A model generated the notes under the pieces. It was given only the letters and a program-made list of their open reading frames with translations. It ran no database searches and was not told the DNA's origin. The position numbers and the translations under genes are program-made. Of a stretch of 44,492 bases of DNA, positions 2,708-44,270 are shown piece by piece (positions within the stretch are counted from its first letter, which is position 1; each line of letters opens with the position of its first letter). The DNA comes from a bacterium (GTDB lineage: Bacteria; Bacteroidota; Ignavibacteria; Kapaibacteriales; UBA7675): contig JAUIKM010000044.1 of NCBI GenBank assembly GCA_030430495.1, forward strand, positions 1 through 44,492. Direction: 5' to 3'.

Positions 2708-4957
2708 CTATTGAACTTTGACAATAGGTAGCGCAAGCGTACTGGATGAATTCACAATGTGAACCATGTGCAAACCTTGAGTGAGATTGTGAATATCCAA
2801 TCTAAAGACTCGAATGTTGCCGGTCTGGTAGTCTTCAACTACATTCAGCGGCAAAATTTTTCCAGATTGATCCACGAGATCTAATTGCAGCGCTGCTGCA
2901 TCTTGTGAGTTAACTTTTACATAGACCCAATCACCGGCGGGGTTGGGATATAACGATGCCGACAGAATTCCACTGCTTGTCTCTTTGTGTGGAGTATCAC
3001 TGTCGGAGACACTCACTGTCAGGGCATTTCCCAGGAAACTGATCCCGCTGGCATAACTCCCCACCCAGATATTGTTCGCTGCATCTACGGTGATCGATTG
3101 AAACAGATTTCCACTGATTCCGGAATTGTCTTCCGAAAAGAATTCCCAATTGGAACCATCGAAACGACCAATACTCCCCTGGAAAGCAAACCACGTATTT
3201 CCAGACTGATCAGCTGTAATATCAAAGGCCGTATTAAAAGGAAGTTCAGAATTTGTGGTGGTATAGGTTGTCACCGAACCTCCTTCTTCCATCAGGGAAA
3301 TCCCAACATCTCCGGAGTACGTGATCCAAACCGAGTTGCCATGTCCTCTATGAACCCCTTCAACCAGATTCGAGGCCAATTCCGAATTTTCAGTTGTTAA
3401 ATGAGTCCAGCCATCGTTTTGCAGGACTGCTATTCCGTTCTGATTTCCAGCAACCCAAACTTCTCCATCTGAAAGGACCGCCACATCGCGGGTCCCTGAA
3501 AAAGGATAATCTGGAGTTGTCCCATTCCAGAATATCTCGCCGATTCCATCCGCATATTTCCGCAAGCCAAAATCACTGGCGATCCAGACATCGCCGTTGA
3601 CCTGATCCACATCCAAATCTCTGATTCCCCGCAAATCGAATTCAGTGCCGGGACCGCCAATTTCTTCCCACTTGCCATCTGAAAAAACGTACAAACCCAA
3701 TCCAAATGTTGTGGCAATTGCGGAGTTGACGCCTGCAGATCGGACATGATCTATGCGCACTCCCCGAAATGGTGCGTTTGCATTTGTCCATATTTCGATC
3801 GTGCCACTTTTTATTCTGGCTACGCCATTGTTTGACGAAATCCAGACTCCGCCCTGAGATGAAGCATCCAGGTCTGTGATATTATTGGATTCCAGCTGAA
3901 CCGGAAAGAGTTGATGCAGAGTAGCCGTTGCGCCATCAAATTGCATGAGCCCAATGTCTGTGGCCATCCAGTAGTCACCATCTGCATCCAACGCAATGCG
4001 ATTGATATTTTTGGTCGGTAATTCAGTGTTAAACGGAGTGTACTCTTCCCAGGATTGATCGCTGTGCAGAATGTATATCCCCGATGCCGCCAGAACGACA
4101 GAGCCATCAGCCGAGAGTACGAGATCAAAGATTGACTGGACATCAACTCCTCCTTGATTGGGCAGCGGAGAGTTGAATGAGTCATAGCTTTGCAGCACAC
4201 TGCCGTCCCAACGCAACAAGCCGCGGCGTATAGTCGCAAGCCATAGCACTCCGTCGGCATTGAACTCCATGTCATTCACTGCAAAGGCGCTGGTTTCTAT
4301 AAAGCCATTGATTCGATAATTAGCCCAACGGTCTTGAGAGTAAATTGCGAACGAGGCCGCATTCGCGGGTGTATTTGCTGCAGCCAGAATTTCTCCATTC
4401 GGACTCTCAGTCAAGCGTTTAACATGGTCAAAAGGGATATCACTATTAGACTGGTTATAATTTGTCCAACTTCCAGCCTGCCACCTGGCGACACCTTCCT
4501 GCCCACATACCCAAACCGCATTGTTGCGGTCGATGCAAATATCGTGTACGATCGTTATTGTCAAGTCTGAGTTCGCGGAGTTGTGGGCAATCCATTGTTC
4601 GCCTTCAAATACTGCAAGTCCATTGTTTGTCCCGAGCCAGATCCGCCCTGTGTTATCTTTCTTTATGACATTCACATTATTGGAAACAAGGCTCTGTGTA
4701 CTTCGATTGTAAATTGTTGGCTCATCATCAGCCGCGTGTTTGACAGCCGCTCCAAGCGAGGCGGAACCACACCAGATGTCGCCTCCGTCTATCAATAGGG
4801 AAGTATACTGTCCGGGACTCGCAATTGTCATCCATTTAGAATCTTCGGCATGGGCGAAGCTGCAGGATACCATTAATAATGCCGCCCCTAACACCCAATG
4901 GTGAAAAGCTGATAACGTTGACAAACTATCGCTGTTCCCGGTCTTGATGTCGCGCAT
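2708..4957 (-). CDS. Secreted two-component-regulator-type propeller protein with T9SS sorting domain
   Basis: 749 residues. The N-terminus has a signal peptide (hydrophobic WVLGAALLMVSCSFAHA, cleavage after AHA). The middle carries about 11 repeats of the regulator-propeller type, each around a core like IWLGTNNGLA, VWVCGQEGVA, VWISSNNGVA or IWVGSYASGI followed by an aromatic-rich strand. These repeats form the sensor propellers of hybrid two-component systems, but here no transmembrane, histidine kinase or response-regulator part follows. Instead the protein ends with a type-A T9SS tail (SLYPNPAGDWVYVKV, then LTQGLHMVHIV). It is therefore a free secreted or surface propeller rather than a sensor kinase. 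Function beyond binding is unknown. The next gene downstream is also a T9SS propeller protein. Confidence 0.88.
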   Translation of the reverse strand: MRDIKTGNSDSLSTLSAFHHWVLGAALLMVSCSFAHAEDSKWMTIASPGQYTSLLIDGGDIWCGSASLGAAVKHAADDEPTIYNRSTQSLVSNNVNVIKKDNTGRIWLGTNNGLAVFEGEQWIAHNSANSDLTITIVHDICIDRNNAVWVCGQEGVARWQAGSWTNYNQSNSDIPFDHVKRLTESPNGEILAAANTPANAASFAIYSQDRWANYRINGFIETSAFAVNDMEFNADGVLWLATIRRGLLRWDGSVLQSYDSFNSPLPNQGGVDVQSIFDLVLSADGSVVLAASGIYILHSDQSWEEYTPFNTELPTKNINRIALDADGDYWMATDIGLMQFDGATATLHQLFPVQLESNNITDLDASSQGGVWISSNNGVARIKSGTIEIWTNANAPFRGVRIDHVRSAGVNSAIATTFGLGLYVFSDGKWEEIGGPGTEFDLRGIRDLDVDQVNGDVWIASDFGLRKYADGIGEIFWNGTTPDYPFSGTRDVAVLSDGEVWVAGNQNGIAVLQNDGWTHLTTENSELASNLVEGVHRGHGNSVWITYSGDVGISLMEEGGSVTTYTTTNSELPFNTAFDITADQSGNTWFAFQGSIGRFDGSNWEFFSEDNSGISGNLFQSITVDAANNIWVGSYASGISFLGNALTVSVSDSDTPHKETSSGILSASLYPNPAGDWVYVKVNSQDAAALQLDLVDQSGKILPLNVVEDYQTGNIRVFRLDIHNLTQGLHMVHIVNSSSTLALPIVKVQ

Positions 4958-5262: not shown

Positions 5263-5883
5263 CTATTCACACTGCGATATACACGGAACAGTCGTCGAGT
5301 ACGGGGTCACATAGAATTCATCGCATACGCCAGTTGCCTGGAAAGTCTCTGTAATCTGAAGGTCTTCTTGACCTCCGATTCCGCCTTCACAGTTCCAGCA
5401 AACATGTAATATTTGCCAACACGCATTTCCGCCACAGTCATCTCGGCGGTAAATATTGTTGAGAGGGTCATACCACCATTGAGAGAGACATCCTGCTCCA
5501 AAAAAACGCCAATAGTCATTTGACTCAGGACAGCACGGGACAACGGCATTCCATGGGTTGACAACCGCTACAATCGTCCGAAAGGCAACATCCGCTATTT
5601 CATCGACAGAAGCACATGGCGACACACCCGCTGGACAATCTGACTCTATGGACGTGATTTCCACATCGTAGTACACGGGAATACCATTTTGAAGAACAGT
5701 CCTCCAACACCAGTGCACTGTTATTACACAACCGCAAGGATCGGTCCACTGGATCGGTTGACCGCCCGCTATGAACGGCTGCCCCGGAAAATCTACCGGC
5801 ACAGGACACTGTGCATGCAATGTCGATTCAATTGCTGCAAACATTATTGTTAACATTGCAGCAAACAAAGCTATCTTTTTCAT
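5263..5883 (-). CDS. Secreted 16-cysteine protein, paralogue A
   Basis: 206 residues; no family recognised. The start at 5883 is chosen because it gives a clean signal peptide (MKKIALFAAMLTIMFAA, cleavage near LHAQ) with GAGGG just upstream; the frame is open further to 5982. The mature part has 16 cysteines, every one matched in the neighbouring paralogue at 6041-6676. Shared motifs in order: WTDPCGC, a CWRT element, CPxGVxPC, VNPWxAVxPCCP, a WWYD element, RRDDCG, two more closely spaced cysteines, and a C-terminal TPYST-x-VPC segment. This suggests a compact disulfide-bonded extracellular domain. There is no T9SS tail and no membrane anchor, so the product is probably periplasmic or released. 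Confidence 0.85.
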   Translation of the reverse strand: MKKIALFAAMLTIMFAAIESTLHAQCPVPVDFPGQPFIAGGQPIQWTDPCGCVITVHWCWRTVLQNGIPVYYDVEITSIESDCPAGVSPCASVDEIADVAFRTIVAVVNPWNAVVPCCPESNDYWRFFGAGCLSQWWYDPLNNIYRRDDCGGNACWQILHVCWNCEGGIGGQEDLQITETFQATGVCDEFYVTPYSTTVPCISQCE

Positions 5884-6040
5884 TTTACCCTCATGTATGT
5901 GGTTAACTGGAGGCAAGAAGCACTCCATTTTGTTAAACAAGTGCATTGACCAGGGCCGCAATAGATGCGCCGCCATGGCCAATGCACATACAGAACTTAC
6001 GACATGGCCTCAATGGCCATGTGATTGCCGGACTGGGTTA

Positions 6041-6676
6041 TTACTGGCAAGCTCCGTTACAGGGCACCTGCGTAGAGTAGGGCGTAGTCCAGGTTGCCGG
6101 GCAGTTGCCACCGGCATTCATGATCGTTTCATTGATAACCAGGCTACCGCGATCTCCGGGCTCAATGCCGTCGCACGTAAAGCAGATGTCCATGCGCGCC
6201 CAACATTGCAGTTCGTCACCGCAATCGTCGCGACGGTGCTGATCCAACACGCCATCGTACCACCAGTTGGTGATACAGGCTGCCGTGAACAAACGCCAAC
6301 GTGAGTCGACCTGAGGACAACAAGGAATAACTGCTCCCCATGGATTAACCGTTCCGATTACAACGCGCAGCGCTTGTTCGCGAATTTCTTCAGGCGTCGA
6401 ACAAGGATTAACTCCAAGCGGACAGTTGGCCGTGATATTAGTGATCGCAAAGTCGAATAAGATCGGCACACCGCCACTGAAGATTGTCCGCCAGCAATAC
6501 TCAACCGTAATGGTGCACCCGCAGGGATCTGTCCACGATACTGCCGGTCCCGGTTGGAATGGAAATGCGAACCAGTCCGGCTCAGGCGGGCACTGCGCCT
6601 CTGCTTCCGGCGCCATTGCAGTTATAGTAAAAACCAGAGCAAAAAGCATTAAAATCGTTCTTGCTGTTCTTGGCAT
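6041..6676 (-). CDS. Secreted 16-cysteine protein, paralogue B
   Basis: 211 residues, preceded by AGAGG about 8 bases before the ATG. The signal peptide is MPRTARTILMLFALVFTITA with cleavage near AEAQ. It matches the protein at 5263-5883 along its whole length, with all 16 cysteines conserved, including the WTDPCGC, PCCP and RRDDCG motifs, while the surrounding residues have diverged considerably. Conservation of the cysteines over the rest is what is expected of a disulfide-stabilised fold under selection. The genes lie 157 bp apart on the same strand, so they look like a tandem duplication. Function unknown. The preceding gene encodes a DUF1573 protein. Confidence 0.86.
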   Translation of the reverse strand: MPRTARTILMLFALVFTITAMAPEAEAQCPPEPDWFAFPFQPGPAVSWTDPCGCTITVEYCWRTIFSGGVPILFDFAITNITANCPLGVNPCSTPEEIREQALRVVIGTVNPWGAVIPCCPQVDSRWRLFTAACITNWWYDGVLDQHRRDDCGDELQCWARMDICFTCDGIEPGDRGSLVINETIMNAGGNCPATWTTPYSTQVPCNGACQ

Positions 6677-17087: not shown

Positions 17088-17332
17088 CGTTCAGCGGCGT
17101 TTGCCGCCCGCTCAGTCGTTTGTGCTTGAAATACCGCGCCAGGCACTGTAGACTTGCTCCAGAAACCGGCCGGGATCTGATTAATCAACCGATGTGGAAC
17201 AATGACGCCCTGGACCTGCGCGAATGACGCGCAGGAGGATGCGGCGTGGGAGGTGTTGTGGAGGTCGAAGGGCCCAGGCAGGTCTGGCAGGCGGGTACGG
17301 GTGGGCCCTTTGATCTTCACACCTAAAACCGC
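17088..17332 (+). repeat. Dispersed GGGCCC-core repeat, copy 4; 245-bp perfect direct repeat
   Basis: Identical to 16668-16912 over 245 bases, with the core at 17270-17308. The 175 bases between the two copies (16913-17087) hold no gene. The right end of this copy overlaps the first unit of a 99-bp tandem repeat. Confidence 0.95.
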
Positions 17333-17500
17333 CCCGAAGGCCTGCAACATCGATCCCGACGACAAACAAAACGGCCTCAAAAGGTGCGCCCGCAAAGGCA
17401 TGGGCCCTTTGATCTTCACACCTAAAACCGCCCCGAAGGCCCGCAACATCAATCCCGACGACAAACAAAACGGCCTCAAAAGGTGCGCCCGCAAAGGCAA
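17303..17500 (+). repeat. 99-bp tandem duplication, two units
   Basis: Units 17303-17401 and 17402-17500 are nearly identical, differing at a few positions (for example CCTGCAACATCGAT against CCCGCAACATCAAT). Each begins with GGGCCCTTTGATCTTCAC, the right end of the dispersed repeat, and contains GACAAACAAAACGGCC. So the tandem arose after a repeat copy was already in place. Confidence 0.9.
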
Positions 17501-33139: not shown

Positions 33140-35518
33140 TCAGCGAACAATGCGCAAGGTATGAATAACGGACACGGCCGACCCGTTAATGCGGATAAAG
33201 TACAGGCCGGACTGCAGCCTCTCCAGATTCAACGTTTTGCGGTGTTTTCCCACATGCATGAATTCCGCGGGAATCTGCTGTACGGTGCAGCCATTGAGAT
33301 CGATAATGTCAACTCCAAAAACGCCCAACCTGTTCACGTCAATTGCAAATTCCAGCAGCCCGCCATTGGCAAGTTCCGCAACGTGCAGCTCGACAGCGGA
33401 GCGGCGTTGTTTAACATCCGGCACCTCAATGTCTGATATTGTGCCGCCCAGATCAACCTTGTACAAACCGGCAGATCGCCCGGCGTCCATGAAAACAGAT
33501 TGATTGTCGGGACCGAGAACAAACCAGGAACAATAGTCCACATAATTATCGGAAGCAGGAATTGTTTTCAGCTCACTGACAAAGTCGCCGCTATGAGAAT
33601 CCCACAGGGTGAGCGGCTGCCCGGGTATGAACGAAGAGTGCGTGGGATATTTGTAGCCGCCGGTGAGTAAATACGCGCCATCGCGCGAAAACCTCAACGC
33701 ATTGACATTCACTTCATTCAGTTCGTGCTCAAAGACCAATTGGTTTTCCTGCGAATCAAAAACGCGAATCCAGGATGTGGAAGTCCGCATGTCAACTCCG
33801 CTCCCGATTGCGAAGGTGCGGCCGTCGGGCGACCAGTCGAACAGGGACTGTTCTGTTGACAGCACAACGCCGTCCGGCAATAAACCTGCAATGTCCAATA
33901 CTGTGCCGGCGACGGCATCGATGATTTCAAGTTTCGTTTTTTCGTCGTCCAGACTCGTTCGACGGAATGTAAACTTGCCCGGTCCGGGACCTGCAACGAT
34001 GAATTCCGATTGATAGCGGTATGGCAGATCGATCGAATGTAAAAGAACGGCGTCAGCGACGCGCCAAATTTTAACCGTTGTGCTTCCGATGCCGGCTAAA
34101 TACGTACTGTCGCTTGAATAACAGGTTTTGGTAATGGATCGCTCACCGTGCGAATAGCGCAGGTCAGCCGCTTCACTGCCGACATTCCACTGGTAGACGC
34201 CAAGATTGGACGGATAAAGCAGGGCGGCGCCATCACGGGTCCATAGTACCGACTGCGCCACACCTATGTCCATCTCGGGATGCATGAACAGATTTGCGCC
34301 GTCAACGACCGATCTAACAAGGAGCTCGCCTGTCGGTCGCGCCTCGGCTATACGCCCGCCGTCGGGTGAGAAACTCATGTCGACAGATTTGTCATGCACG
34401 GCGCGGAACGGCGACAACTTACCTGTTTTAACATCCATCAGGCGCAATCCCCCAATGTCTGCAACGCCCATTGCACCATCCCAGTTCTCAGCACTGAGCA
34501 GCAGATTCCTGCCATCAGGCATGAGCTGTGGAACGCCGACATAGCGATATTCCGCCATCGACAGGTTGTTAACCTGACCCTGCGGCGTAATACGACCGAT
34601 ACGATGTACGTTGTCGTTGCTGCCCGGCTCTTTCTGGGCAAATACTATGCCGCCTTCCGCATCAACGGCCGTCATTACGACCCGGGCAGTCCACCTCTCC
34701 ACACTGACGTCGGCTTCAAAAGCTTCAGCGCCGATTTCAAGATCATACAGTTTGATATATGCTTTCTTGCCACCGTCCTCGTACCTAAGCGTGGCGATAT
34801 GACTGCCGCTGCTGTTGACCGCGGCCACCGACTCACGCGCCGGCAGCCTGATGGCGTCGGAAACAATGGTAATCTCGCCCGCGGGAATTTCCACCACGGC
34901 TGGGCGACCATCATCCAGGCGCACTAACAGCGTCGACTCACCAACAAATCGAATGGGCGTCATATCACTGTTGCGATACACTTCCTCGCCGCCGGGCGCA
35001 TCAAACACAACCAGCGTCGAGTCCAATTCAAAATCGGGCAGCGACTTCACATCGGCAATGCAGACATAGCGACCATCGGGCGAAATCGCATACGCTGGCC
35101 CTTCGCCAAACAAGGTGCCCGGCATTGTGTCGGAACGCACATTGCGTTCATAATCCCAGATATACCAACCTCCCCACCTGCCGTCCTGCCAGAATTGATC
35201 GTACATGAGCAGGGCAGACGCCTCATCAGCCAAACCGACGGGAACAAAACTGCGATCAAAGATTCGCCCGGCAAACACATTGCTTTCCAGGTCCAGAACG
35301 GAATAGGAATAGGAGTGATATCTGGTATCCGCTCCAAACGCCAGTGCCGTGCCGCTGCCGTTTACCCACACACTGTTGTTCGCGGTCACGGCCATATCGA
35401 CCGGAATCTGATCCCAAATCGGCTCGAGCACTTCTTCCTGCGCGTCGAGCGCGTTACAGCAACCCAGACTCAGTGCGGCGCAGAGCATGGTTTTGAATAT
35501 TATTTTCAGCGGTTTCAC
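33140..35518 (-). CDS. Secreted WD40/TolB-like beta-propeller protein with T9SS sorting domain
   Basis: 792 residues from a GTG at 35518 with AGAAGAGG about 8 bases upstream, giving a lysine-rich signal peptide (MKPLKIIFKTMLCAALSLG, cleavage near LDAQ). Multiple propeller blades are seen, with motifs such as SPDGRYVCIADV, VNSSGSHIATLRYE, SPDGGRIAEARP, WSPDGRTFAIGSG, and SRDGAYLLTGG, which belong to WD40 or PD40-like repeats. The last ~75 residues (ELANGGLLEFAIDVNRLGV, ERLQSGLYFIRING, ending HTLRIVR) form a type-A Por sorting tail lacking a clear YPNP motif. It is therefore probably exported by T9SS to the surface. Function unknown. A terminator-like repeat lies directly downstream. Confidence 0.85.
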   Translation of the reverse strand: MKPLKIIFKTMLCAALSLGCCNALDAQEEVLEPIWDQIPVDMAVTANNSVWVNGSGTALAFGADTRYHSYSYSVLDLESNVFAGRIFDRSFVPVGLADEASALLMYDQFWQDGRWGGWYIWDYERNVRSDTMPGTLFGEGPAYAISPDGRYVCIADVKSLPDFELDSTLVVFDAPGGEEVYRNSDMTPIRFVGESTLLVRLDDGRPAVVEIPAGEITIVSDAIRLPARESVAAVNSSGSHIATLRYEDGGKKAYIKLYDLEIGAEAFEADVSVERWTARVVMTAVDAEGGIVFAQKEPGSNDNVHRIGRITPQGQVNNLSMAEYRYVGVPQLMPDGRNLLLSAENWDGAMGVADIGGLRLMDVKTGKLSPFRAVHDKSVDMSFSPDGGRIAEARPTGELLVRSVVDGANLFMHPEMDIGVAQSVLWTRDGAALLYPSNLGVYQWNVGSEAADLRYSHGERSITKTCYSSDSTYLAGIGSTTVKIWRVADAVLLHSIDLPYRYQSEFIVAGPGPGKFTFRRTSLDDEKTKLEIIDAVAGTVLDIAGLLPDGVVLSTEQSLFDWSPDGRTFAIGSGVDMRTSTSWIRVFDSQENQLVFEHELNEVNVNALRFSRDGAYLLTGGYKYPTHSSFIPGQPLTLWDSHSGDFVSELKTIPASDNYVDYCSWFVLGPDNQSVFMDAGRSAGLYKVDLGGTISDIEVPDVKQRRSAVELHVAELANGGLLEFAIDVNRLGVFGVDIIDLNGCTVQQIPAEFMHVGKHRKTLNLERLQSGLYFIRINGSAVSVIHTLRIVR

Positions 35519-36570: not shown

Positions 36571-36744
36571 ATCAAAAAGTCGACGCTCAGCCGGAATCCG
36601 CGGCGTCCCACGCCTGCGATAATATTTCGCTCAATAGAGCCCCGCGCTTTTCGTCATTCCGCGCTGCCGCACGCTTCCGCCGTGCGCCCGCTAATCGATA
36701 TGACCATAAACAAACTATTCAGACCTACACCCAGGAGGAAAAAA

Positions 36745-38622
36745 ATGTCGAAAAACACCAGCCAAACGGCTGACACCTTCGAATTTAAAGCCGAAATGCG
36801 GCAGCTGCTCGACCTCATCGTCAACTCGCTCTATACCCACCCCGAAATATTTCTGCGCGAACTGATCTCCAATTCCAGCGATGCGCTCAACAAAGCGCGC
36901 TACCGCGGCCTGACCGACAAAGACATGCGCGATGCCGATGCGCCGCTGCAGATCAAAATCGAGATCGATAAAGACGCAAAAAAACTCGTGATTGAAGATT
37001 CCGGTATCGGGATGCGCCGCGAAGACCTCATCAACAGGCTCGGAACCGTGGCCAGCTCCGGCACCCTCGAATTCATCAAAAACCTGAAAGACGCCGGCGA
37101 ACAAAAAGTCGGCGATATGATCGGCCAGTTCGGTGTCGGTTTTTACTCCGTATTTATGGTGGCCGAAGAAGTGACCGTCGAAACGCTGCACGCCGATGCC
37201 GACGCCACCGCCTGGCGCTGGGTCTCCGACGGCAAAGGCTCGTTTACGCTGGAAGAAATAGAACGCGAACATCGCGGCACGCGCATCTCCTTTACGCTGA
37301 AAGACAGCGCCGATGAGTTTGCGGACGACTACCGCGTCAAATCGATCATCAAGAAATACTCGAACTTCGTTGAATTCCCCATCATGGTGGGCGATGAAAA
37401 AGTCAACAGCGTGCGCGCCCTGTGGCACGAGAGCAAAGACTCCGTCAGCGAGGAAGAATACAGCGAGTTTTACAAGTTCGTGACCAACGACTTCAGCGGG
37501 CCGCTGGGCCACCTGCACCTCTCGATTGAAGGCGCGTCGGTCAACTTCAAAGCGCTGCTGTTTATCCCTGAAAACAGCCACTACCGCACCATGGGCTGGC
37601 AGAACGAAAAAACGGCGCAGCTCTACTCCAACAAAGTCTTTATTATGGACGACTGCAAAGACCTGCTGCCGGAGTACCTGCACTTCGTCAAAGGCGTCGT
37701 CGACACCGAAGACCTGCCGCTGAATGTCTCGCGCGAGATGACGCAAAACAGCCCCGTGATGGCCAGGATCAAGCAGATCCTGACCAAGCGTCTGCTCAGC
37801 CTGCTGGAAGAATGGGCCGAAAAAGAGCCGGAAAAATACGCGAAGTTCTACGAGGCCTTTGGTTCGCCCTTTGTGATGGGCGTCAACATGGACTTCGATA
37901 ACCGCGAGCGCCTGATCAAACTGCTGCGTTTCCACTCGACGACGACCGAAGGCGAACAACGCACCGGTTTTGCCGACTACGTGGCGCGCAAAAAAGACGA
38001 TCAGAAGGACATCTACTACTTCACCGGCGATCATCGCGACAGCATGCAAAACAGCCCCAAGCTGGAATACTTCCGCAAGAACGAGATCGAAGTCATGCTG
38101 CTGACGGATCCGGCCGACGTGATGGTGATTCCGTCCATCGACAAGTTTGAAGAATACAACGTCGTGTCGATCGAAAAAGCCGACCTCGAGATCAAAGAGG
38201 ACGAAAGCACGGACGCCGAGAAAGAACAGCGCATCAGCGACGAGCAGGCGGACTCCCTGCTGGCCTCGTTCAAAGCCATTCTGGGCGAGCAGGTGGAAGA
38301 CGTGCGCATCTCCAAACGCCTCGTCGATTCGGCCGCCACGCTGGTAGCCGGCGCCCAGGGCATGGACGCTCACATGGAGCGCATGATGAAAATGATGGAC
38401 GCTTCCTACGGCGGCTCCAAAAAAATCCTGGAAATCAACCCCGGCCACGACCTGATCAAAAACCTGGCGCGCATTCAACTTGGAGGCGGCAGCGATGAGG
38501 ACCTGCGTCCCTACATCATGCAGCTGTTTGAAGGCGCCATGCTGCTGGACGGCGCGCTGAGCGGTCCGACGGATTTTGTGCAGCGCATGACCAAAATCAT
38601 GACCGACGCCACACAAAAATGA
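36745..38622 (+). CDS. htpG: Molecular chaperone HtpG (Hsp90)
   Basis: 625 residues, the usual bacterial Hsp90 size. The ATG at 36745 has a perfect AGGAGG seven bases upstream. The GHKL ATPase domain is seen in the N-terminal ~230 residues: FKAEMRQLLDLIVNSLYTHPEIFLREL, ISNSSDALNKARY with the catalytic Glu before it, VIEDSGIGMRREDL, and the lid IGQFGVGFYSVFMVA. The middle domain holds PLNVSREMTQNSPVM, with the catalytic Arg of the middle domain. The C-terminal dimerisation domain ends normally. The enzyme is a cytosolic ATP-dependent homodimeric chaperone. It appears to be a single-gene unit; no terminator was recognised directly after it. Confidence 0.98.
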   Translation: MSKNTSQTADTFEFKAEMRQLLDLIVNSLYTHPEIFLRELISNSSDALNKARYRGLTDKDMRDADAPLQIKIEIDKDAKKLVIEDSGIGMRREDLINRLGTVASSGTLEFIKNLKDAGEQKVGDMIGQFGVGFYSVFMVAEEVTVETLHADADATAWRWVSDGKGSFTLEEIEREHRGTRISFTLKDSADEFADDYRVKSIIKKYSNFVEFPIMVGDEKVNSVRALWHESKDSVSEEEYSEFYKFVTNDFSGPLGHLHLSIEGASVNFKALLFIPENSHYRTMGWQNEKTAQLYSNKVFIMDDCKDLLPEYLHFVKGVVDTEDLPLNVSREMTQNSPVMARIKQILTKRLLSLLEEWAEKEPEKYAKFYEAFGSPFVMGVNMDFDNRERLIKLLRFHSTTTEGEQRTGFADYVARKKDDQKDIYYFTGDHRDSMQNSPKLEYFRKNEIEVMLLTDPADVMVIPSIDKFEEYNVVSIEKADLEIKEDESTDAEKEQRISDEQADSLLASFKAILGEQVEDVRISKRLVDSAATLVAGAQGMDAHMERMMKMMDASYGGSKKILEINPGHDLIKNLARIQLGGGSDEDLRPYIMQLFEGAMLLDGALSGPTDFVQRMTKIMTDATQK

Positions 38623-38746: not shown

Positions 38747-38761
38747 TGAACCTGAGGTTCA
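38747..38761. promoter_or_regulatory. Inverted repeat upstream of the Cys-rich repeat gene
   Basis: TGAACCT-G-AGGTTCA is a perfect 15-base inverted repeat about 70 bases before the start at 38832. A TTGATG and, 17-18 bases later, a TAACATTTT element (about 38773-38805) look like a promoter between it and the gene. The repeat could be an operator just upstream of -35. Inference only. Confidence 0.4.
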
Positions 38762-38831
38762 GATCCGCTCATGTTGATGCAAACATTTTAATCATAACAT
38801 TTTCACTTTTTGAGATTGGAGTTCAGACGCT

Positions 38832-39656
38832 ATGCGCAAGTTATTTTTTGCCCTGACGGCAATTGTGGCCGGCGTTGCTTTCAGCTACACCGCATCCACC
38901 CATGTCTTTGCCTGTGACGGCAGCGACGCCAAACAAGCTGACAACACGGAAAACGTTCAGTCCTGCGACAAATCGGCTTCGGCCTCGGCAATCAAAGTTT
39001 CCGACAAAGGCGACAAACAGTGCGCATCGAAAGCTTCGGCTTCGTCCTGCAGCGCTTCCAAAGCCTCGGCAACCAAAGTCTCCAACGACGGCAGCGGCTG
39101 CTGCGCGTCCAAAGCTGCTAAAGCTTCCAACGTTTCCAACGAAGCCGGCTGCGCGTCCAAAGCATCCGCTTCTTCCTGCGATGCGTCCAAAGCTTCGGCG
39201 ACCAAAGTCTCCAATGACGGCCACGGCTGCTGCGCGTCCAAAGCCGCTAAAGCTTCCATGACGTCCAACGAAGCCGGTTGCGCTTCCAAAGCTTCCGCTT
39301 CGTCCTGCGATGCGTCCAAAGCTTCGGCGACCAAAGTCTCCAATGACGGCCACGGCTGCTGCGCGTCCAAAGCCGCTAAAGCTTCCATGACGTCCACGGA
39401 CGGCGCCTGCCCCAAAACCCTGCGCGCCGCCAACTTCGTCAACGCTTCGCATGACGCCGCCTGTGCTTCCAAAGCTTCCTGCAGCGCTTCCAAAGCTTCC
39501 TGCGACGCCTCCAAAGCTTCCTGCGACGCTTCCAAAGCTTCCGACGCCAAAGCTTGCAGCAAATCCTGCGACAAAAGCGCCGACGAGGTCAAAATGACCG
39601 AAGCCACGGAAACGCCCGTCAAAAAAGTCGCCGACAACAGCTCCAGCGAAGAATAA
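38832..39656 (+). CDS. Secreted Cys/Ala/Ser/Lys-rich protein with three 43-residue repeats
   Basis: 274 residues with GGAG upstream. The N-terminus is a signal peptide (KLFFALTAIVAGVAFSYTA, cleavage near VFA). Residues 64-106, 107-149 and 150-192 are three near-identical 43-residue repeats, each with four cysteines (positions 1, 10, 27 and 28) in CASKASASSC, SNDGHGCCASKAAKAS-type blocks. At DNA level this is a 129-bp tandem repeat. A second region of short SKASCDA repeats follows, then an acidic tail without cysteine. In all I count 21 cysteines, and almost only A, S, K, C, D, N, T and G are used. No family recognised. A metal-binding, redox or structural periplasmic role is possible. A terminator follows. 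Confidence 0.85.
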   Translation: MRKLFFALTAIVAGVAFSYTASTHVFACDGSDAKQADNTENVQSCDKSASASAIKVSDKGDKQCASKASASSCSASKASATKVSNDGSGCCASKAAKASNVSNEAGCASKASASSCDASKASATKVSNDGHGCCASKAAKASMTSNEAGCASKASASSCDASKASATKVSNDGHGCCASKAAKASMTSTDGACPKTLRAANFVNASHDAACASKASCSASKASCDASKASCDASKASDAKACSKSCDKSADEVKMTEATETPVKKVADNSSSEE

Positions 39657-39713: not shown

Positions 39714-39751
39714 AAAGCGCGGACCCGTTCAAGCGGGTTCGCGCTTTTTTT
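39714..39751 (+). terminator. Rho-independent terminator after the Cys-rich repeat gene
   Basis: AAAGCGCGGACCCG and CGGGTTCGCGCTTT pair over about 13 bases with one wobble around TTCAAG, followed by a T-run. It lies 58 bases past the stop at 39656. Confidence 0.9.
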
Positions 39752-40034: not shown

Positions 40035-41162
40035 ATGGGGTTTTCGGTCCGGGCTCTGGCCGCAGGCGATGTTGGAAAATTCATCAACTGCCAGTGGCAA
40101 TTTTATCGCAACGATCCCAACTGGGTGCCGCCCCTGAAAATGGACCGGCGCAAACTGCTGGACACCAAAAAGAATCCATTTTACCAGCATGCGGAAATCC
40201 AGCTTTTTCTGGCCGAAGACGGCAAGAAGGTGCTGGGCCGTATCGCCGCCATCACCAATGAACTGCACAATCAGACGCACGGCGACAAGGTGGGATTCTT
40301 TGGGTTTTTTGAATGCGTCAACGACCAACAGGTCGCCAAGGCGTTGGTGGAATCTGCGGCGGCCTGGCTGCTCGGCAAAGGCAAAACACATGTGCGCGGC
40401 CCCGTCAATCCGTCGATGAACGACGAGTGCGCCCTGCTGGTGGACGGTTTCGACACGCCGCCGCGCGTGCTGATGACATACAATCCGCCCTATTACGCCG
40501 ACCTGCTTGAAGGCTGCGGTTTCCGCAAGGTCAAGGACCTCTACGCCTACGACATCGACCGCAAGGTCTACCGCTCGGAAAAACTCGAGCGCATGCAGGA
40601 CCTCATTCGCCGGCGCTATGACATCACCATTCGCGAAGTCGACTTCAAAAACAAAGCGCAGTTTCAACGCGACATTGAAACGATCAAGATGATTTACAAC
40701 GAAGCCTGGGAAGACAACTGGGGCTTTGTAAAACTGACCGACGACGAATTCGACTTCCTGGCCGCCGATCTCAAGATGATCGCCAATCCCAAGCTGACCT
40801 ACTTCGTGGAAATCAAGGGCAAGACCGCCGGATTTTTCCTCGGCCTGCCCGACATCAACCAGCAGTTGATTTACAATCGCGGCGGCGGCATCCTTGGCGG
40901 CGGCTGGCACCTGCTGACCAAAAAGTCAAAGGTGGACACGGCGCGGATTGTCATCATGGGCGTGCTGCCGGAGTACCGGCGCACCGGCGCCGACGCCGTC
41001 ATGTACTACGAAGTCGGCAAACGGGTCGATGAGCTCGGCATGCGCTACGGCGAGGCGTCGTGGATTCTGGAAGACAACGTCGAGATGCGCCAGGCGCTGC
41101 AACGCGCCATGAAGGCCGAACTCAGCAAGACCTATCGCATCTACGAGAAACCTCTGACCTGA
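40035..41162 (+). CDS. GNAT-like N-acyltransferase (YghO-like)
   Basis: 375 residues, start preceded by GAGGGG five bases upstream. It belongs by eye to a family of large GNAT-fold proteins common in FCB bacteria: the N-terminal part has VPPLKMDRRKLLDTKKNPFY, RIAAITNELHNQTHGDKVGFFGFFEC and RGPVNPSMNDECALLVDGFD, and the second half contains the second acyltransferase-like lobe with IVIMGVLPEYRRTGADAVMYYEV, which matches the acetyl-CoA binding motif V-x-P-x-Y-R-x-x-G, and SWILEDNVEMRQALQR. No signal peptide, so cytosolic. The substrate is unknown. A GC-rich simple repeat follows its stop and separates it from purF by 140 bases. Confidence 0.8.
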   Translation: MGFSVRALAAGDVGKFINCQWQFYRNDPNWVPPLKMDRRKLLDTKKNPFYQHAEIQLFLAEDGKKVLGRIAAITNELHNQTHGDKVGFFGFFECVNDQQVAKALVESAAAWLLGKGKTHVRGPVNPSMNDECALLVDGFDTPPRVLMTYNPPYYADLLEGCGFRKVKDLYAYDIDRKVYRSEKLERMQDLIRRRYDITIREVDFKNKAQFQRDIETIKMIYNEAWEDNWGFVKLTDDEFDFLAADLKMIANPKLTYFVEIKGKTAGFFLGLPDINQQLIYNRGGGILGGGWHLLTKKSKVDTARIVIMGVLPEYRRTGADAVMYYEVGKRVDELGMRYGEASWILEDNVEMRQALQRAMKAELSKTYRIYEKPLT

Positions 41163-42852: not shown

Positions 42853-42956
42853 TACGGCGCCAACTCCGCGCGCCTGCCAGATGACTGCATCTGAATAATC
42901 ACTCAAATTCAAGCCGCACTGTGACGGCGCACTGTATACAGCGAGAGAAATCGATA

Positions 42957-44270
42957 ATGCCGAAATTCAAATTTCCACTGTTTGCCTGTTTGTGTGCATT
43001 GAGCCTTCTGTTTACCGCCTGCGGCGGTTCCGATGAGAACGAACCGGCGCCGGAAGACCTGCCCAGCCTGGACGACGTGCTCGGCGATCTGCCCGAAGCT
43101 CAAATGGATGCAGCATACGATCCCGCTGCGGACGTCCTGCGCTATACCGGTGAAGCGCGCCTGCGCAACGTCAAACAATTGACCTTCGGCGGCGACAACG
43201 CCGAGGCCTACTGGAGCTTCGACGACGAATACCTGATTTTCCAGAGCTCCTGGGATCAACTCACCAAGCAGGGGTGCGACCAGATTTTCATCATGCGCGC
43301 CAACGGCGAACCGATGGAAGCCGGTCAGCAGTACTCGCTGGTGTCGACGGATCGCGGACGCACGACCTGCTCTTACTTTATGAAAGACGGCCGCGTGCTC
43401 TTTGCCTCCACGCACGAACACAGCGACGAATGCCCTCCGCCGCCGGCCAAAGCCGAAGGCCGCTACGTCTGGCCTATCTACGACACGTACGACATCTGGG
43501 CCTGTGAGACGGACCGCTCCAACATGACGCTGCTGATCCACGGCCCCGGCTACGACGCCGAAGCGACGGTCTCGCCCGACGGCAAGTACATCGTTTTCAC
43601 GTCGACGCGCTCGGGCGACCTGGAACTGTGGCGCTACGAAATCGCAACCGGCGACCTGCTGCAGCTGACGAACACGCTCGGCTACGACGGCGGTGCTTTT
43701 TTCTCGCTCGACTCCAAAAAGATCGTCTGGCGCGCCAGCCGCCCCACGGGCGAAGACGCCGAGACCTACAAAGCCCTGCTGAAAGACGGCATGGTTGAAC
43801 CCTCGGACATGAACATCTATGTGGCGGACGCCGACGGCAAAAACGTCGTTCAGGTGACCGATCTGCCGGGAGCCAACTGGGCGCCGTACTTCCACCCGGA
43901 CGGCGAGCGCATTCTGTTCTCGTCGAACCACCATTCGATCGAAACGTCCGGCGGCCGCGAGTTCGACATCTTCATGGTCAACGTCGACGGCACGGGCCTG
44001 GAGCGCATCACGTATTCCGGTACGTTTGACGCATTCCCGATGTTCTCGTTCGACGGCAGCAAACTGGCCTTCGGCTCGAATCGCCGCGCCGATCGCGCGT
44101 CTTCACGCGAGACCAATGTGATGGTGGCCGAGTGGATTGAAAACCCGACCGACGCGGATCGCAACTTCGTCAGCAACGTGGCAATGCCGGAAGCGAGCGA
44201 GCACGGCCACGGCGGCCATGGTCACGGCGAAGGCGAGGAAGACGGCGAAGACCACGGGCATTCGCACTGA
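42957..44270 (+). CDS. TolB-like PD40 propeller lipoprotein with His-rich tail
   Basis: 437 residues from the ATG at 42957 with GAGAG upstream. The signal MPKFKFPLFACLCALSLLFTACGG has the lipobox LFTAC, so it is lipid-anchored; the residue after Cys is Gly, compatible with outer-membrane sorting. The body has several PD40 blades (QLTFGGDNAEAYWSFDDEYLIF, VSPDGKYIVFTSTRSGDLELW, FHPDGERILFSSN, FSFDGSKLAFGSNR), as in TolB. It ends with EHGHGGHGHGEGEEDG and EDHGHSH, containing eight His, which could bind Zn, Ni or Cu. Extra cysteines near residue 110-165 may form disulfides. No Tol-Pal genes are adjacent, so it is not TolB itself. Confidence 0.85.
   Translation: MPKFKFPLFACLCALSLLFTACGGSDENEPAPEDLPSLDDVLGDLPEAQMDAAYDPAADVLRYTGEARLRNVKQLTFGGDNAEAYWSFDDEYLIFQSSWDQLTKQGCDQIFIMRANGEPMEAGQQYSLVSTDRGRTTCSYFMKDGRVLFASTHEHSDECPPPPAKAEGRYVWPIYDTYDIWACETDRSNMTLLIHGPGYDAEATVSPDGKYIVFTSTRSGDLELWRYEIATGDLLQLTNTLGYDGGAFFSLDSKKIVWRASRPTGEDAETYKALLKDGMVEPSDMNIYVADADGKNVVQVTDLPGANWAPYFHPDGERILFSSNHHSIETSGGREFDIFMVNVDGTGLERITYSGTFDAFPMFSFDGSKLAFGSNRRADRASSRETNVMVAEWIENPTDADRNFVSNVAMPEASEHGHGGHGHGEGEEDGEDHGHSH

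Follow-up and report, generated by a model that had tools for sequence, protein, structure and literature searches.

A cysteine-rich exported protein with tandem repeats and its relatives in front of an order-wide cell-envelope cluster in Kapabacteria

Introduction

Exported proteins of low complexity that carry many metal ligands have been described in a few settings. SilE is a disordered periplasmic sponge and offers a known model of how such a protein may work (PMC5008109). Exported, cysteine-rich precursors, a few of them of great length, are also typical of MNIO substrates (PMC12452194). Here we describe a gene for a repetitive, cysteine-rich exported protein found in a stretch of 44,492 nucleotides, called the window in the following, which is contig C69 of a 5.6-Mb, 95.6%-complete genome (G000) of the Kapaibacteriales, and we compare its locus with those of its relatives in the order.

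Results

The gene (38832-39656, + strand) starts with ATG and encodes 274 amino acids including 21 cysteines, as the first-pass annotation of the sequence had read it, and it has a syntenic orthologue in a second genome, G002. All 21 cysteines lie downstream of a Sec signal peptide (residues 1-27; 38832-38912, +), which resembles a signal peptidase I substrate, is likely cleaved after VFA between A27 and C28, and belongs to an N-terminus that is conserved in G002. Signal peptide and composition agree with the earlier description of a low-complexity, cysteine-dense, exported protein. Tandem Repeats Finder detected 129-bp units at 39021-39396 (2.9 copies, 90% match). These encode three units of 43 residues that begin at codons 64, 107 and 150 (39021-39149, 39150-39278 and 39279-39407, all +), each with four cysteines including a CC pair. 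The SNDGHG stretch that had been ascribed to every unit is present in two of the three: unit 2 reads SNDGHGCC, unit 1 has SNDGSGCC instead, and in unit 3 it is the last four residues that have diverged. Unit 2 differs from unit 1 at 21 nucleotides and from unit 3 at 9; both synonymous and amino-acid-changing differences occur, with the four cysteines per unit intact. The SKASCDA tail noticed at first pass was recovered by the same program as an array of 21-bp repeats (3.7 copies; 39465-39542, +), and the protein ends in KKVADNSSSEE. Searches with the protein in Pfam, NCBIfam and PDB gave no match; with no domain match in Pfam or NCBIfam, a type A/B C-terminal sorting domain of T9SS substrates was not found. 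AlphaFold, given a 15-sequence alignment, returned a mean pLDDT of 50 and no fold, and the protein is predicted to be intrinsically disordered. Its codon adaptation index of 0.825 is the highest of the 22 window genes; since the ribosomal genes used for reference show only weak bias themselves (0.61-0.78), this value is not taken as a sign of high expression.

The gene is flanked by htpG, encoding Hsp90 (36682-38622, +), and by a GNAT-like acetyltransferase gene (40035-41162, +), and both neighbours are common to G002. The GNAT-like gene occurs order-wide and served for finding relatives; its closest named relatives are in Candidatus Kapaibacterium/Kapabacteria and Chlorobiota MAGs (best JANQRB010000008.1, 68%). 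A leader with a Shine-Dalgarno sequence, GATTGGAGT (38814-38822, +), is identical in G002. The inverted repeat TGAACCTGAGGTTCA (38747-38761), taken at first pass for a regulatory element, is short and of doubtful significance: by our estimate chance alone would place about 0.1 repeats of this kind there, and a search of the G002 leader did not find it, which leaves the regulatory reading without comparative support. A scan for sigma-70-type promoters upstream of the gene gave no match, though promoters of Bacteroidota are outside the reach of this kind of scan. Behind the gene lies an intrinsic terminator of good quality (AAAGCGCGGACCCG..CGGGTTCGCGCTTT followed by a T-run; 39714-39747, +).

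Other features of the window were recorded as well. Three genes downstream of the gene for the repetitive protein, a PD40 beta-propeller protein (42921-44270, +) carries a His-rich and possibly metal-binding tail, HGHGGHGHGEGEEDGEDHGHSH. Two adjacent paralogous genes (5263-5982 and 6041-6676, -) encode exported Cys-rich proteins with PCGC, CWRT and SDCPAGVSPC motifs, a globular family unlike the protein at 38832-39656. At 17302-17499 a 99-bp stretch is directly duplicated (2.0 copies, 97% match) across short open reading frames.

A scan of the genome contigs directly with the window protein gave no match, because the protein is of low complexity. A profile search for relatives yielded members in G008, G073, G077 and G001, all of which directly precede one shared gene. 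Its product, a protein of 700-780 amino acids, starts with MxKGGAGKVYFVLYLAVILELLIIIVERDEAEEHL, and the gene is present in 95 of the 99 genomes of the order. The region upstream of it was read in 60-odd genomes, and in 39 of these a same-strand ORF for a Cys-rich exported protein of 75-131 amino acids was observed. The 39 span seven of the ten GTDB families, labelled f1-f10 in this analysis. The ORF occupied the envelope site in all genomes read of f4 (7), f6 (5), f7 (1), f9 (8) and f10 (1), in 16 of the 17 of f2, and in G001 of f1. No Cys-rich ORF was seen at that site in f3, f5 and f8, or in G000 and G002; for the three families this absence concerns the site only, because many of the members known from f4 and f9 escaped the family profile. 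The gap between the ORF and the envelope gene measures 28-341 bp, with terminator-like sites in three gaps only. The monocistron proposed at first pass is plausible for the window gene, which is relocated and has its own terminator, whereas most relatives lead the envelope cluster.

Together with the genes of G000 and G002, the family comprises 41 members. All of them pass a strict filter that asks for a signal peptide, at least 4.5% Cys, a CC pair and few bulky residues. Applied to 1.02 Mb of background loci, the same filter picked up the window gene, its orthologue in G002 and a single spurious match. The existence and conservation of the family are well supported. An f2 genome, G019, has at the ancestral site a homologue with only three cysteines and no CC (L200:1421-1846, +). 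This appears to be a natural loss of thiols and implies that cysteine loss was tolerated at least once. Several candidates were rejected. The only match outside the order in a phylum-wide profile search (G406, 88 aa, KKSTSCCSHSK..) is not linked to the cluster and is probably convergent, and automatic picks in G027, G063, G094 and G042 as well as the first one in G014 were discarded as spurious ORFs. When five relatives were compared with Pfam and NCBIfam, sub-threshold matches to unrelated models were all that appeared. A literature search, with subscription journals mostly outside its coverage, returned no paper joining Kapabacteria with cysteine-rich proteins, and the family is apparently undescribed.

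The G002 orthologue, from the GTDB family of the window genome, has 271 amino acids and stands in the same order, between htpG and the GNAT-like gene. It shares with the window gene the signal peptide region and the leader. Its repeats are different, 84 bp in 2.3 copies as against 129 bp, which indicates that each lineage expanded independently. In G001, of the same family as G000, the gene is found at the ancestral envelope-cluster site and not at the GNAT site, whereas in G000 and G002 the reverse holds. No second copy was found in G000; a second match in its own genome (C63) and distant matches in G026, G032 and G046 were chance hits in other frames or proteins. The fewest events would be needed if the gene moved once, in the common ancestor of G000 and G002, and the protein then lengthened from about 75-131 to about 270 amino acids. 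The number of cysteines is 4-10 in the relatives and 18-21 in the window lineage. The prediction that repeat length would be labile was borne out by this comparison across relatives (274 amino acids in the window, 271 with 84-bp repeats in G002, 75-131 elsewhere).

A CC pair is present in all 41 members, mostly as [S/G]-C-C-x-x-K. At the 75 CC sites, S or G precedes the pair in 63 and K stands at +4 in 49, giving the consensus [SG]CC[SAM][STMK]KA. The G-H-G-C-C element emphasized at first pass is not conserved, the family motif being [SG]CCxxK. Histidine is usually absent outside f6, whose members have it beside the CC pair. The mature proteins consist overall of 18% A, 17% S, 15% K, 10% T and 8% C, with almost no aromatic residues. 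Within f2, f4, f6 and f9 cysteine was the most conserved residue (0.86, 0.94, 0.82 and 0.74), the others ranging from 0.07 to 0.76 and mostly below 0.5; these figures lean on alignments that favour cysteine matches, and ungapped close pairs agree with them. At first pass, frameshifts in relatives and a lack of selection had been named as signs against the proposed reading. The dN/dS values of 0.09-0.25 in close pairs indicate purifying selection; for G000 versus G002 the value was 0.49, on an uncertain alignment. Many members have an odd number of cysteines (5, 7 or 9), so that not every cysteine can be paired within one chain.

The gene for the 700-780-amino-acid protein is followed by genes for two further exported proteins and then for a VWA-OmpA protein. 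This operon-like, four-gene envelope cluster occurs order-wide, its first three genes being without a Pfam assignment (L135:6973-13628, L133:1-6508, L222:1-6683). The first protein, which contains almost no cysteine, has an N-terminal membrane helix, a helical part and several beta domains, a layout like the one known for GldM in the type IX system (PMC5790014). GldM_1st (PF12081) is absent from it, hhalign against canonical GldM gave a probability of 1.5%, and searches with Pfam, PDB profiles and folds yielded no proof of GldM. The matches listed by VIA-align and Foldseek were generic Ig/FN3 ones, with no PorM or GldM among them. The protein is therefore termed GldM-like in layout only, since sequence profiles do not prove its identity. 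The third protein has a C-terminal end resembling that of an outer-membrane protein and, in three aligned members, three invariant cysteines in its mature part. The gene that precedes the GldM-like gene in f8 (L167:1019-1462 (+), L173, L177, L179) closes with a two-transmembrane segment whose second helix carries a Glu. By eye this segment looks GldL-like; hhalign gives this no support. SprA, a marker of the T9SS translocon, was present in all four genomes tested, including that of the window. The window itself encodes two large secreted proteins, one with a T9SS type-A-like sorting domain at its end (YPNP..; 2708-4957, -) and another with a similar beta-rich C-terminal tail (33140-35518, -). 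To judge from their sequences, these two proteins would be consistent with an active T9SS.

Discussion

The account to which we lean, tentatively, is that of a disordered Sec-exported sponge for thiols or soft metals, which would serve the neighbouring cell-envelope complex. A chain rich in Cys, Lys, Ser and Ala, with CCxxK pairs, would be exported via Sec, its thiols being the working parts. It would then stay in the periplasm or reach the surface, take up thiols or soft metals of the Cu+/Zn2+/Ag+ type, and thereby assist the adjacent complex. The copy in the window lineage stands outside the cluster; there it would have acquired its own terminator, and tandem duplication would have added extra binding units. 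What we observe are the export signal, the composition, the order-wide family and its place before the envelope cluster, the conserved cysteines, purifying selection, relocation and repeat expansion; disorder (as predicted), residence in the periplasm, binding of metals or thiols and service to the complex are what we infer. From the gene neighbourhoods comes support for an envelope role and none for metals. Across the loci read, no gene for a metal transporter, a metal sensor or efflux proved to be linked to the family. Composition alone is no proof of metal binding, and periplasmic cysteines may be oxidised rather than free. Of the functions proposed at first pass, metal sequestration and a cross-linked envelope material may each apply; what the conserved neighbourhood supports independently is the envelope role.

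Odd cysteine numbers and CC pairs allow a sponge or a disulfide-linked accessory alike. The protein could be a structural or accessory part of the adjacent T9SS-like trans-envelope machine, in which disulfides between chains would link its copies to each other or to the cysteine-bearing outer-membrane protein of the cluster. Vicinal cysteines, and the three invariant ones after the signal region of the third protein, would suit such bonds. The envelope cluster is the only conserved context of the family, and SprA is present in the four genomes tested. Yet the gene was kept and even enlarged in G000 and G002, where it stands outside the cluster; f3, f5 and f8 keep the cluster with no such gene in front of it, and outside the cysteines the sequence varies too freely to form a fixed interface. 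On balance we regard an accessory part as rather unlikely. It is improbable that the protein is an Asr-like disordered periplasmic protectant or chaperone, in which Lys, Ala and Ser would matter and the cysteines would be incidental: its composition and signal peptide are like those of the acid-shock protein Asr, and one member gives a weak score with NF033636 that misses the cut-off (E 0.043), but the conserved residue is Cys, not Lys or Ala. To our knowledge Asr has no such cysteine density and is not Cys-rich.

A RiPP precursor of the bufferin/oxazolin type, whose cysteines would be converted by MNIO into copper-chelating heterocycles before export, is very improbable. A Sec signal peptide and a cysteine-containing precursor, which belong to the definition of that class (PMC12452194), are both present here, and a MauE/DoxX-like gene adjoins the G001 copy. 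MNIO (DUF692, PF05114), however, is absent from G000, G001, G002 and G008 and from 38 of the 41 carriers as a whole, being present in G011, G025 and G053 only. In G011, the only one of these three whose locus was read, it is in a different locus from the Cys-rich gene, and the window protein matches no bufferin/HvfA-type model of Pfam or NCBIfam. The absence of MNIO makes such a precursor unlikely and largely refutes it for the window genome. That there is no gene at all, and that the GC-rich tandem repeat gives a chance open frame, would be suggested by the long overlapping antisense ORFs in the same stretch; this reading is refuted by the G002 orthologue, which shares frame and position, by the 39 syntenic relatives and by purifying selection, and its probability is next to nil.

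Apart from the family, the MNIO gene of G011 is a true one and lies beside the gene of a 479-aa Cys-bearing protein (L246:11-2376), possibly an unrelated MNIO-RiPP locus.

What began as a repeat curiosity led to a conserved family that annotation pipelines and HMM searches have largely missed because of its low complexity. Our own family profile missed most of the known f4 and f9 members, and it was synteny, not sequence similarity, that revealed the family. The family offers a testable example of rapid evolution in a disordered protein, with selection holding on to the cysteines alone, and a relocated copy of it would have been freed for expansion by tandem duplication. It also draws attention to a thiol or metal element, as yet unstudied, next to the envelope machinery of Kapabacteria. 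There is a substantial chance that the family is a new component of this machinery. More speculatively, it may be an undescribed, lineage-specific thiol component of a Kapabacterial T9SS-like machine, a disordered Cys-rich chain that would load, protect or cross-link this complex through the chemistry of metals or disulfides; one lineage would then have turned it into a free-standing protein with expanding repeats. We consider this rather doubtful.

Among known systems, the protein resembles metallothioneins in its high cysteine density, its CC and CxC-like spacing and its few aromatic residues. Those proteins are short and cytosolic, whereas the window protein is exported, longer and rich in Ser, Ala and Lys, and no curated metallothionein profile of Pfam or NCBIfam matched it. 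With Asr it shares export, richness in Lys and Ala, repetition and, by prediction, disorder. Bufferins/oxazolins (Buf_EGKCG) likewise have a Sec signal peptide and a low-complexity, Cys-rich mature part of very variable length; the present family differs in having neither the EGKCG motif nor a family match, nor MNIO in most of its carriers. Homology to SilE/PcoE or a sil/pco neighbourhood was not found in Pfam or among the neighbours, which are htpG and the GNAT-like gene or the envelope cluster. The likeness to SilE/PcoE lies in Sec export, repetitive ligand motifs, disorder and a proposed absorption of metal (PMC5008109), of which the disorder is here predicted and the binding would be presumed. 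The two differ in that SilE works with His and Met and belongs to the sil operon, whereas the family described here uses cysteine, in CCxxK motifs, and is linked to envelope genes.
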